A stretch of DNA of 64,000 bases, from positions 62,001 to 126,000 of the forward strand of contig NZ_JAGETW010000004.1 of NCBI RefSeq assembly GCF_017571475.1. Reading direction: 5' to 3'. A program made the translations under genes and the position numbers. Source of the stretch: Thiomicrorhabdus sp. 6S3-12. Lineage in GTDB: Bacteria > Pseudomonadota > Gammaproteobacteria > Thiomicrospirales > Thiomicrospiraceae. Within the stretch, counting starts at the first letter, position 1, and each line of letters opens with the position of its first letter. A model generated the notes under the pieces. That model saw nothing but the letters and a program-made list of their open reading frames with translations, ran no database searches and was not told the origin of the DNA. Below, in pieces: positions 34,311 through 42,248 of this stretch.

Positions 34311-34967
34311 GTGAGCCAAAAATCGCAAAAACCGATGTTCAATTCCGCTCTGTTTCGCGCCATGGGCAACTCGGCCGGAAAACTCAGCGCCTTTGTGGTG
34401 ATCTGCATTATTCTGCTGCTTGGCGTTCGCGCCCTGACCGGACCAAAAATCGATGCCGCCGAACGGCAGAATCTACTGGATCGCTTCAATGAAGTTTTGC
34501 CGGCGGAATACTATGATAACGATCCTCTGGCAGATACTAAATTGCTCAAAGACCCTAAAATTCTGGCTCGTCTCGGCGCCAAAGATCCGGTAACGGTCTA
34601 TCGGGCACGCAAGGGAATTGAACCGACCGGTGCGATTTTTCAAGCCATTGCGCCAAATGGTTACAGTGGTAACATTTATATTCTGATTGGCGTCTTTCCT
34701 GATGGTCAGGTTTCCGGCGTACGTGTTCTCAAACATGCGGAAACCCCCGGACTCGGCGATAAAATCGAATTGCAGAAACATGATTGGATTCTCTCTTTCG
34801 ACCGCCGCATCCTGACCCCCGGCAACCAGTATGATTGGGCAGTGAAGAAAGACGGCGGTGATTTCGATCAGTTCACCGGTGCGACCATTACGCCGCGCGC
34901 TGTCGTCGGAGCCGTTAAACATGCGCTTGAAGTGGTCAACGAGTTAGGAGATAAGCTGTATGACTGA
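34311..34967 (+). CDS. rnfG: Rnf complex subunit RnfG
   Basis: 218 residues with one N-terminal membrane anchor (about 20-43, [14 protein letters not shown]) and a periplasmic FMN-binding domain. The S/TGAT flavin acceptor motif is [17 protein letters not shown]. The start is GTG at 34311 with GGAGAG five bases before it. Its 3' end overlaps rnfE by eight bases. Confidence 0.95.
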
Positions 34968-35724
34968 TACCAATACTCTGGCGGATACTCCGAATTCAAC
35001 CGCCGCAGATGCCATTGAAACAACGCCGAACGTCTGGCAGGCAAAAAAAGCCGAATACAAAAAGATTATGCTCAACGGCCTGTGGCAGAACAACCAGGCC
35101 ATGGTCGCCCTGCTGGGCCTGTGTCCGCTGCTGGCAGTATCCAACAACGCCGTTAACGGTTTGGGGCTCGGACTGGCAACGCTGGCGGTATTACTGGTTT
35201 CCAATACGCTGGTTTCCCTGATTCGCAGTCACGTCTCCGATGAAATCCGTATTCCGGTGTATATCGCCATTATCGCGACGGCCGTCACCATGATCGACCT
35301 GCTGATGAACGCCTATTTCCATACCTTACACGGCATACTGGGCATCTTTATCCCGCTGATCGTGACCAACTGTGCGATTCTCGGCCGCGCCGAAGCCTAT
35401 GCCTCAAAAAACAGCGTCGATAAAGCCATCGTTGACGGTTTCTTTATGGGACTGGGCTTTTTGGTGGTACTGGTTCTGCTGGGCGCCTTGCGCGAGATTA
35501 TCGGTTCTGGAACGCTGTTTGACCAAGCGCATCTGATGTTCGGCGAAACGGCGCGCAACTGGACCATCACCTTCAGCGACGACTATCAAGGTGTTCTGCT
35601 GGCAATTCTGCCGCCGGGAGCTTTTATCGGTTTGGGTCTGCTGATCGCGGCCAAAAACTATATCGACCAGAAAAAAGCCGCCAAACTGCAGAACGACCTC
35701 GGCATTAAAATCGCTATCAAATAG
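34960..35724 (+). CDS. rnfE: Rnf complex subunit RnfE
   Basis: 254 residues with about six membrane helices. [11 protein letters not shown] and [11 protein letters not shown] carry the cysteines of the membrane [2Fe-2S] cluster shared with RnfA. The N-terminal 40 residues are longer than in many RnfE. It is the last rnf gene, and its stop is one base from the stop of the convergent sialidase-like gene. In many gammaproteobacteria nth is next; here one gene intervenes. Confidence 0.95.
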
Positions 35725-35725
35725 T

Positions 35726-36814
35726 TTATGATCCAGTCTGTTGCAGCAGCCAATCTTCGTAAAACTCAAGACGTAATTCGGACTGCATGGTCGTCAGCCA
35801 GATTTTGCCCGGCGAGACTTCAAACAAATAGGGATAAGCCAGCCAGGCCCCTTTGCATTGCGCCACAATCAACGGATCACTCCAGCTCTCTCCGTCATCT
35901 TCAGAATAACACACTGCCAACTCCTCGCGGTGCCATGAAGCAGCCACTTCCGAGAACTGCCCGCCGCGTCGCGGAAACTCCGTTTCACCCTGAGGATAGA
36001 GCGTGTTATAGACCATTAACAGACGCCCGCTTGCCAGACGTTTCAACATCGCCGGCGAACTGCTCGCCTCGATCCCCGGATGAATCTGCGTCCAACTGCG
36101 CCCGTCATCATAGGAATAGGCGTGCCAGAAGTAATCCTGATTGGTTCTAATGCAATACCAAACCCTGTCAGGCAATTCAACCAGCGTCCCTTCATAGCAG
36201 CCACCGTGATGGCCGCGTCCGCCGATATCAAGTTTGTTGCTCGCATGCCAACTCAAACCGTCATCGTCGGAACGGAAACTCAAACTGTAATGGCGCGCCT
36301 GCTGATAATCCAGGTTCTGCGCCGACAGCACGATCGCCCCGGATTCAAGCTGAATCATGGTCGAACTGACCGCCGCATAACCGGTCTGAATTCGTATCGG
36401 TTCCTGCCAACTCCGTCCTCCGTCTTCACTGCGAACAACATAGTGATATAAACGGGAATTCTTTGTCGGCGCATTGCGCTTTTTAACCCAGTTGAAATGG
36501 TACTCCTCGGCATTCAGGAAAGAGAGAATAACGGTACCATCCCGAGTACAAAGCAGGCTGTGCGCATCGGTCGCTTTGAATGGCATCTGCTCGGAAAATA
36601 GCTCAAATGCCTGCCAATCTTTGCCGTCGTTCGCGGACAGATAAGCGGTTTTCCCGTGGATACAGAGCAGATCCCCGTCGCAGTTGCGGATAAAAGGCCC
36701 GTTATGCTCGATGCTCAACGGACGAATACCCTCCGCCAAGAAAACCGGCGCATCGGTTTTCGGCGCTTTGGAAAAATTCAGTTTTATCTGCGGGTACTCG
36801 ATCATTTTCTGCAT
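35726..36814 (-). CDS. Sialidase-fold (BNR/Asp-box) protein, cytoplasmic
   Basis: 362 residues forming a probable six-bladed beta-propeller. Five Asp-box motifs (S-x-D-x-G-x-x-W) can be seen: SANDGKDW (60), SEDGGRSW, SDDDGLSW, SYDDGRSW and SEDDGESW. RPLSIEHNGPFIR and a YNTLYPQGETEFPRRGG segment could supply substrate-binding residues. No signal peptide or membrane segment is seen, so it should be cytoplasmic. Closest general family is exo-alpha-sialidase-like glycosidases, but a true sialidase arginine triad cannot be assigned by eye. It lies between rnfE and nth on the opposite strand and looks like an insertion into a conserved order. Confidence 0.75.
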   Translation of the reverse strand: MQKMIEYPQIKLNFSKAPKTDAPVFLAEGIRPLSIEHNGPFIRNCDGDLLCIHGKTAYLSANDGKDWQAFELFSEQMPFKATDAHSLLCTRDGTVILSFLNAEEYHFNWVKKRNAPTKNSRLYHYVVRSEDGGRSWQEPIRIQTGYAAVSSTMIQLESGAIVLSAQNLDYQQARHYSLSFRSDDDGLSWHASNKLDIGGRGHHGGCYEGTLVELPDRVWYCIRTNQDYFWHAYSYDDGRSWTQIHPGIEASSSPAMLKRLASGRLLMVYNTLYPQGETEFPRRGGQFSEVAASWHREELAVCYSEDDGESWSDPLIVAQCKGAWLAYPYLFEVSPGKIWLTTMQSELRLEFYEDWLLQQTGS

Positions 36815-37079: not shown

Positions 37080-37712
37080 ATGAATAAACAGAAACGATTA
37101 GAAATATTCCAACGCCTCAGCGAAGCGATTCCGGAACCGGAAACCGAGCTGGAGTATTCCAGTACTTTTGAGCTGCTGATCGCGGTGATTCTTTCCGCCC
37201 AGGCAACCGACAAAGGCGTCAATATCGCCACCCGCAAGCTGTTTCCGGTAGCCAATACGCCGGAAGCGATCTATGCCTTGGGCGTAGACGGTCTTAAAGA
37301 GTACATCAAAACCATCGGTCTGTTTAACTCCAAAGCGGAAAACATTATCAAAGCCTGCAAAATGCTGGTAGAACTGCACGGCTCGGTGGTTCCGGACAAT
37401 CGTAAAGATCTTGAAGCCCTGCCGGGTGTCGGCCGCAAGACGGCGAATGTCGTTCTCAATACCGCTTTCGGTCAGCCAACCATGGCAGTCGATACACATA
37501 TCTTTCGCGTCTCCAACCGCACTAAACTGGCGCCGGGTAAAACCGTGCTTGAAGTGGAAAAGAAACTGCTCAAAAATGTACCGAAAGAGTATCTGATCCC
37601 GGCACATCACCTGCTGATTCTGCACGGCCGTTATACCTGCACCGCTCGTAAACCGCGCTGCGGCGCCTGCTGTATCTACGATTTGTGCGAATACAAAGAA
37701 AAAACCGAGTAA
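37080..37712 (+). CDS. nth: Endonuclease III
   Basis: Base-excision repair DNA glycosylase/AP lyase for oxidised pyrimidines. 210 residues. Helix-hairpin-helix LPGVGRKTANVV has the catalytic lysine K120, and D138 lies in VDTHIFR, at E. coli numbering. The [4Fe-4S] loop has C187, C194, C197 and C203, plus an additional C198. It follows the rnf operon, a common linkage. Confidence 0.97.
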   Translation: MNKQKRLEIFQRLSEAIPEPETELEYSSTFELLIAVILSAQATDKGVNIATRKLFPVANTPEAIYALGVDGLKEYIKTIGLFNSKAENIIKACKMLVELHGSVVPDNRKDLEALPGVGRKTANVVLNTAFGQPTMAVDTHIFRVSNRTKLAPGKTVLEVEKKLLKNVPKEYLIPAHHLLILHGRYTCTARKPRCGACCIYDLCEYKEKTE

Positions 37713-40890: not shown

Positions 40891-41262
40891 ATGGCAAGTA
40901 AGAAAACTATCTTTGTTGCTTTTGCAATCGAAGACGAAAAAATTCGGAACATGATTAAGGGGCAATCCTTAAATACGGATTCTCCTTTCGAGTACATAGA
41001 TATGTCTGTTAAAGAGGCATACGACGAAGAATGGAAGAAAAAAGTTCGAACTCGGATACTCCGGTCTGATGGTGTTTTAGCAATAGTTAGCGAAAATTCA
41101 TTAAAATCAAGTGGACAGAAGTGGGAAATTAAGTGCGCGAAAGACGAGAAAGTAAAAGTTCGCGGAATTTGGGCATACAAAGGTGATCGTACCAATATCG
41201 AAGGTTTGAATACGATGGTTTGGACGTGGGACAACATTGCTAACTGGATTGATAGCCTCTAA
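40891..41262 (+). CDS. Short TIR protein (ThsB/DUF1863-like), candidate Thoeris sensor
   Basis: 123 residues, a single TIR-like Rossmann domain. It opens with a strand [19 protein letters not shown], has a middle strand [11 protein letters not shown], and then W78-E79 in [13 protein letters not shown], where the ThsB family places its catalytic glutamate. No other domain is attached. In Thoeris systems such proteins detect phage infection and make a cyclic ADP-ribose-type signal from NAD+. The ribosome site is AAAGGA about ten bases before the ATG. The stop TAA shares a base with the start of the next gene (TAATG), indicating coupled translation. Family recognition is by eye. Confidence 0.82.
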
Positions 41263-42248
41263 TGCGAAAAGCTCTTATTGTTGGAATCGACTATTATACA
41301 AACGTCAGCCCCCTTTTTGGCTGTGTTAACGATTCATTTTCGGTCAAAGCTATGTTGGACCGTCATGCAGACGGTTCCGTAAATTTCGGAGTGAAGCACC
41401 TCGTATCGACTGGTCCCAACGATACATGTGACCGCGAAGAGCTGCGTAGTGCAATCCAAGAATTGTTTTCCGGCGATGGCGAAGTTGCTGTTTTGTATTT
41501 TGCTGGCCATGGACATATCGAGGCTACCGGTGGTTACCTTTGTTCTTCCGATATTAAAACAGGAAATGATGGTGTTCCGTTAGCAGAGATAATGGTTATG
41601 GCTAACCAGTCTAGAATACAGAACAGGGTAATAGTTCTAGACAGTTGTCATAGTGGTGTTGCAGGGGGAAGTGCTTTACAGCAAAAAGTCGCAGAGATAA
41701 GTGACGGTGTAACAATTTTAACCGCCTCAACAGCGGAGCAATATGCAACAGAAGAAAACGGTGCAGGTGTTTTTACTAGCCTTTTAGTTGATGCTTTAGG
41801 AGGGGCTGCCGGAAACCTTGTCGGCGATGTAACTCCTGGTGGTGTTTACGCACATGTAGATCAGTCGCTTGGCCCTTGGGCTCAACGGCCGGTATTCAAA
41901 ACTAATGTAAACCGTTTTGTATCTCTACGAAAAGTCCAACCTCCATTGGCAATTACTGAACTCCGTCGTATTTCTGAATTTTTCCCTTCTTCGGGCTTCC
42001 AGTTTCAGCTTGATCCAACATATGAACCTGAACGCCACGAATCATGGGAAAAAGATCCTCAAGGTATTCCACCTCCTGATCCAGAACACAATGCAATTTT
42101 TGAGATATTACAAAAGTACAATCGTGTTGGCTTAGTCGTTCCAGAAGGTGCACCACATATGTGGCACGCAGCCATGGAGAGTAAGTCCGTTCGTCTAACA
42201 GTTCTTGGGGAACACTACCGCAGCTTGGCTCATAAAGGACTAATATAG
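41262..42248 (+). CDS. Caspase-like protease, candidate type IV Thoeris effector
   Basis: 328 residues. The N-terminal caspase (peptidase C14) fold, about 1-225, starts [20 protein letters not shown]. It has the catalytic histidine H83 in YFAGHGH and the cysteine C129 in VLDSCHSG. The C-terminal region (about 228-328) is a separate domain ending [18 protein letters not shown] and is a candidate ligand-binding or regulatory part. In type IV Thoeris, a TIR-made N7-cADPR signal activates a caspase-like protease that degrades cell proteins and aborts infection. The overlapping TIR gene fits this. Activation and ligand are inferred. Confidence 0.85.

Follow-up and report, generated by a model that had tools for sequence, protein, structure and literature searches.

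A sialidase-fold protein without a signal peptide in Thiomicrorhabdus and its co-occurrence with a legionaminic acid-type synthase: a candidate activity on the cell's own sugar

Bacterial sialidases have been studied mostly as exported tools acting on host or food glycans. The 64,000-nucleotide stretch of Thiomicrorhabdus sp. 6S3-12 analysed here (the window) encodes, at positions 35726..36814 of the reverse strand, a sialidase-like protein that seems to remain inside the cell, and this raises the question of what it could act on there. A reading made from the sequence alone (the sequence-only reading) had pointed to internal nonulosonic acids or another sugar.

The open reading frame is intact and encodes 362 amino acids. 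As that reading had stated, its stop lies one base from that of the convergent rnfE gene (34960..35724, forward strand; named from operon order): 35724 is the last base of the rnfE stop codon, and the stop of the sialidase-like ORF begins at 35726 on the opposite strand. The neighbour on the other side (37080..37712, forward strand) is presumably nth, an endonuclease III-like gene named from its sequence. A chance ORF is ruled out by orthologues with 54–68% identity over approximately the full length, plus one at 99%. The gene is present in a single copy in its genome. In Pfam, the protein matched BNR_2 (E=2.5e-25), with BNR also above the cut-off and no family more specific, and its scores against the NCBIfam models were not near any cut-off. 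Reading the sequence for the pattern S-x-D-x-G-x-x-W located five Asp boxes, the number previously claimed, although only four are strict: box 1 (residues 60–67, SANDGKDW; 36614..36637) is degenerate, with Asn replacing Asp, and boxes 2 (residues 129–136; 36407..36430), 3 (residues 182–189; 36248..36271), 4 (residues 234–241; 36092..36115) and 5 (residues 304–311; 35882..35905) follow the pattern strictly, all on the reverse strand.

An AlphaFold2 model built from 11 family sequences reached a mean pLDDT of 88.4 and a pTM of 0.89. Sialidases headed the list when the model was compared with the PDB by Foldseek, and the best chain in VIA-align was human cytosolic Neu2 (2f0z; Z 28.5, 298 aligned residues, 2.9 A), with the Micromonospora viridifaciens sialidase (1eur) at Z 28.2. 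According to the Pfam, Foldseek and VIA-align results, the protein has the six-bladed, Asp-box-bearing propeller typical of GH33 sialidases and has its whole fold in common with these two GH33 enzymes, which agrees with the sialidase fold originally proposed. By sequence, the closest PDB protein is the GH181 sialidase AmGH181 (Amuc_1547) of Akkermansia muciniphila.

No hydrophobic N-terminal stretch was found in the window protein (top 11-residue mean hydropathy 0.95), and none of the 21 family proteins examined had a strong one in the first 45 residues (top 11-residue mean 1.53). Signal-like stretches with 11-residue means of 2.27–2.96 were present in eight of nine distant relatives examined; the ninth reached 1.38, in an ORF possibly over-extended upstream by the ORF finder. 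The absence of a signal peptide was thus confirmed by comparison (0.95 versus 2.27–2.96 in 8/9). A cytoplasmic sialidase had been considered unusual; the predicted location holds, but there is a precedent, the best fold match, Neu2, being itself titled cytosolic.

Conservation of the active site was scored in an alignment of 32 relatives, down to 38% identity; outside it stand L002 (99% identical to the window protein), L009 (with an in-frame TGA), L076 (with a stop) and L079 (partial). Glu208, Arg223, Arg296, Tyr327, His202, His203 and Arg174 are invariant in all 32 rows. Tyr327 (35834..35836) is the candidate nucleophile and Glu208 (36191..36193) its putative partner, as in the Tyr/Glu pair of GH33, an assignment that comes from alignment with GH181 and not from structure superposition. 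Arg223 (36146..36148) and Arg296 (35927..35929) would be the second and third Arg of the carboxylate-binding triad (these codons, too, lie on the reverse strand). In phmmer and profile alignments, Glu208, Arg223 and Arg296 pair with E218, R234 and R305 of AmGH181, numbered as in excerpts of PMC10067855 and PMC12018670; going by the same excerpts, GH181 has His349-Gln350 where the window protein has Tyr327, and the GH181 Asp345 has no conserved counterpart in the 32-row alignment. The pairs Tyr327–Gln350 and Gln344–Gln367 were obtained by aligning the GH181 segment Gln350–Gln367 by eye without gaps, and HMMER placed this segment elsewhere with a negative score. On this pairing, which is our own reading, Gln344 (35783..35785, reverse strand) would match the Gln that replaces the third Arg in GH181 and serve as the stand-in for the missing Arg; it is kept in 28 of the 30 sequences reaching the position, with His in L078 and L093 (L080 and L081 end earlier).

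GH33 sialidases carry an N-terminal Arg motif of the triad. In the window family, this first Arg was not found, and its site, placed by eye, is occupied by a conserved Gly-Pro-Phe (residues 39–41), so that two of the three carboxylate-binding Arg are present. The acid/base Asp that precedes the first full Asp box in GH33 was sought through HMMER alignments of sub-profiles; the C-terminal sub-profile gave no information on Tyr327, whose placement comes from the GH181 segment aligned by eye. The acid/base residue of the Porphyromonas gingivalis sialidase, Asp219 (mutated in 8t26), falls opposite Thr117, and the family lacks any conserved Asp or Glu across residues 100–122, a loop aligned with moderate certainty. 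In some of the exported relatives, an Asp occurs two positions after Thr117. The domain architecture also differs: GH181 is extracellular, with linker and C-terminal CBM-like domains, whereas the window protein is a single, putatively cytosolic propeller that stops where the propeller ends. The family therefore appears to combine a GH33-type Tyr with a GH181-type Gln apparently replacing one Arg. Judged by its residues, the protein is a distinct, predicted cytosolic variant of the sialidase superfamily and not a proven member of GH33 or GH181, because it lacks the first Arg and a canonical acid/base Asp. The Arg/Tyr/Asp set named in the sequence-only reading is accordingly present in part: Glu208, Arg223, Arg296 and Tyr327 are invariant, and neither the first Arg nor the acid/base Asp was found.

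The genomic position offers little guidance to function. The insertion between rnfE and nth had been thought worthy of attention, and we rejected a functional meaning for it: in most of the relatives where this could be measured, rnfE sits next to nth (usually 9–104 bases apart, further in a few), and only the window's strain and two relatives (G020 and G025) have the gene between the two. More commonly, it follows a hemJ-like gene (identified by eye), which stands directly upstream in 15 of the 21 carriers searched, on the same strand and ending 13–156 bases from the match, and recurring in the genera g1, g6 and g28. A recent plasmid transfer was rejected as well, as tblastn of a plasmid collection returned no match. 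No sialic-acid catabolic neighbours were seen by eye in 20 carrier contexts. This, together with the absent first Arg and acid/base Asp, argues against a standard GH33 enzyme that acts on imported sialosides and lacks a signal peptide by chance; the fold and the BNR_2 match would suit such an enzyme, which we nevertheless consider very improbable. Overall, the gene seems to have been in the family for a long time and to have moved in some lineages, and in others it was apparently lost along with the Leg synthase described below.

A NeuB search of the same genome returned two genes, both on contig C16, where they belong to a cluster situated amid flagellar genes. The cluster comprises LegB (TIGR04180), LegC (TIGR04181), a NeuD-type acyltransferase, a NeuB-type synthase and a NeuC-type epimerase, all five above curated cut-offs, as well as a cytidylyltransferase (a PseF match below the cut-off), a second NeuB-like protein, a kinase-like protein (by eye) and a CBS-nucleotidyltransferase, for which no model scored above its cut-off; these are followed by flagellins and a Maf-like protein (PF01973). 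The synthase scores above the cut-off of the NeuB model (named N-acetylneuraminate synthase) and below that of PseI, and the equivalent gene of a non-carrier genome (G015) passes PseI. From LegB and LegC, by model names and knowledge of these families, we infer that the nonulosonic acid of this genome is legionaminic acid (Leg). The search for neu or leg genes that the sequence-only reading had suggested was therefore positive. That reading had treated the lack of both the active-site residues and any sialic acid-type pathway as decisive against it; the pathway is present and the residue set is incomplete. The second NeuB-like protein is a divergent synthase with an SAF domain (C16, L045 18384-19421) that reaches neither the NeuB nor the PseI cut-off, and similar genes occur in approximately half of the carriers' flagellar clusters.

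The sialidase-like protein and the Leg-type synthase were then searched for in 62 genomes of the family, a genome being counted as Leg-positive on a synthase match of 380 bits or more, or on one of 55–67% identity that was shorter or split (G060, G072 and G019). Both were found in 23 genomes, the protein alone in one, the synthase alone in nine and neither in 29; in other words, the synthase was present in 23/24 carriers and absent from 29/38 non-carriers. Within the window's genus, the corresponding counts were 11, 0, 1 and 20 (synthase in 11/11 carriers versus 1/21 non-carriers), and in the sister genus g6 they were 9, 0, 0 and 2. The single protein-only genome (G074) is 84% complete. Of the synthase-only genomes (G019, G034, G060, G075 and G078–G082), six belong to one genus and one to the window's genus. 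The Leg pathway can hence do without the sialidase-like protein, since nine Leg-positive genomes lack it. The two genes are unlinked, lying from 74 kb apart (G003, the nearest pair compared) to on separate contigs, as in the window's genome. In a search of 58 genomes, the 12 family carriers were without any NeuB match at 286–307 bits, the range of the PseI-type genes in many non-carriers; in the 62-genome set, one carrier (G062) has an additional synthase-like gene with 32% identity. G019 has split copies of metG and of the Leg-type synthase (L192, L221), and these breaks may be assembly errors.

Shared ancestry was taken into account by means of independent contrasts. With metG alone, the tree covered 59 of the 62 genomes (G073, G074 and G079 had no usable metG), and 4.9 of six contrasts on average went in the same direction and none in the opposite one (median p 0.0625). 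On a tree of joined metG, rnf genes and nth, 5.8 of seven contrasts agreed, again with none opposite (median p 0.031). When genomes less than about 95% complete were dropped, the remaining 45 tree genomes were distributed as 21/0/7/17 (both, protein only, synthase only, neither) and gave 4.8 of six contrasts with a median p of 0.0625. A patchily distributed ABC permease of the window (9/62 genomes above 400 bits), used as a comparator, showed a raw association with p 0.027, but only 1.0 of four contrasts. A second comparator, the caspase-like gene at 41262-42248 of the window (named by eye), occurs in only two of the 62 genomes, the window's own and G075, and was too rare to inform. This suggests that the sialidase-like gene and the Leg synthase change together on the species tree, in a consistent direction and through few independent events.

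The same data bear on the possibility that the protein acts on another sugar or glycoside and that it matches Leg as a side effect of common descent and of the exchange of many genes in lineages changing from Leg to pseudaminic acid. The nine Leg-positive genomes without the gene, its place beside hemJ outside the Leg cluster, the borderline significance of the contrast test and the raw association of the comparator are all in keeping with this explanation. However, no opposite contrast appeared in either tree and the comparator's association vanished on the tree, and we regard this alternative as somewhat unlikely.

We tentatively favour a cytosolic sialidase-fold enzyme that acts on the cell's own Leg rather than on host or food glycans, a candidate activity. 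Its link to an internal nonulosonic acid, as originally suggested, gains from a pathway that is present and co-inherited, although the expected active-site set was only partly found. Maf-dependent flagellin glycosylation has been described as cytoplasmic and preceding export in Aeromonas (PMC4065374). By the same route, Maf would attach Leg to flagellin in the cytoplasm of the window's strain, prior to export, and an enzyme trimming or removing flagellin-bound Leg would then have to be cytosolic, because Leg is added there. In the proposed mechanism, the propeller would hold the carboxylate of Leg by Arg223, Arg296 and Gln344, and Glu208 would assist Tyr327 in its attack on the anomeric carbon. 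Since the acid/base Asp is absent, either the leaving group would be protonated by another residue (His106, His202 and His203 are candidates) or the substrate would have a good leaving group. Leg might thereby be released from mis-glycosylated or unexported flagellin, or passed to another acceptor. Against such an enzyme stand the nine Leg-positive genomes without the gene and the 84%-complete carrier without a synthase; the weakening of the contrast to p 0.0625 with genomes at least 95% complete or with metG alone; the first Arg and acid/base Asp that were not found; a usual neighbour that is hemJ-like and not a Leg gene; and exported distant relatives without a tie to Leg.

The substrate with a good leaving group could also be the activated sugar itself, the protein being a CMP-Leg hydrolase or a CMP-Leg-using transferase in the sialidase fold. 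The cytosolic place and the tie to a pathway that makes CMP-Leg would fit, as would a kept Tyr/Glu pair with no conserved Asp or Glu in the acid/base loop: CMP departs without general-acid help, and the lost Asp would therefore be expected. Nevertheless, the same Tyr/Glu pair and both Arg also occur in the exported distant relatives, and extracellular CMP-sugars are not expected; we know of no propeller of the sialidase kind that uses CMP-sugars, and consider this alternative distinctly unlikely. The two missing classical catalytic features, with the carboxylate-binding Args invariant, might instead indicate a non-catalytic Leg-binding propeller, such as a sensor, a chaperone or a quality-control lectin for Leg-flagellin. 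Such a role seems unlikely, as Tyr327 and Glu208, which answer to catalytic rather than binding needs, are invariant in 32/32 sequences down to 38% identity.

Returning to the favoured enzyme acting on the cell's own Leg, a bolder form of it would be a dedicated cytosolic nonulosonidase (or a CMP-Leg-using propeller) that edits the cell's own flagellin sugar before export and belongs to a new branch, intermediate between GH33 and GH181, with Tyr and Glu kept and the acid/base Asp lost. We put this forward with still more reserve. The sialidase-like gene is co-inherited with the pathway of Leg flagellin glycosylation (leg/ptm genes with Maf), which this genome has in its flagellar locus. To our knowledge, no sialidase-fold protein forms part of this pathway, and none turned up in the literature searched. 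Searches of the literature found no work joining Thiomicrorhabdus with sialidase or Hydrogenovibrio with legionaminic acid, and nothing on an intracellular bacterial sialidase with CMP-sialic acid turnover. No sialidase-like protein tied to a self-made nonulosonic acid turned up in the literature searched, which included part of PMC11416241.

For cytoplasmic flagellin glycosylation, we know only of writers (Maf). If the favoured reading is true, the protein would be an eraser or editor of this modification, a sialidase turned inward. Enzymes for legionaminic acid are scarce, and the family would also be a source of them. As a separate observation, Leg-type and PseI-type synthases alternate inside the window's genus, a candidate case of flagellar sugar switching.

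Named relatives in the species collection belong to Thiomicrorhabdus, Hydrogenovibrio and Thiomicrospira. Other gammaproteobacterial BNR proteins were rejected as kin: a profile search of 369 genomes of the class gave eight matches outside the family, all much weaker, and the six inspected were different proteins or out-of-frame picks of the ORF finder. Another gammaproteobacterium encodes a different 353-aa BNR protein (L237 9043-10658), next to a phosphatase that by eye resembles KdsC. Six of the 12 distant-relative loci were read (Verrucomicrobiota, Planctomycetes, Omnitrophota and Hydrogenedentota) and encode exported proteins whose surroundings vary. Of the 13 genomes searched (that of L064 and the 12 distant ones), 7 had NeuB-type genes above 200 bits, which says little, and the neighbourhoods of the distant relatives were rejected as a functional clue. 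An N-terminal extension of approximately 300 aa is common to the exported relatives L072 8120-10198, L075 8864-10996, L073 8915-10999 and L074 8975-11041, whose hosts are Omnitrophota, Hydrogenedentota and one other bacterium; those of L072 and L075 adjoin genes resembling BlaI/BlaR1-type regulators (by eye).
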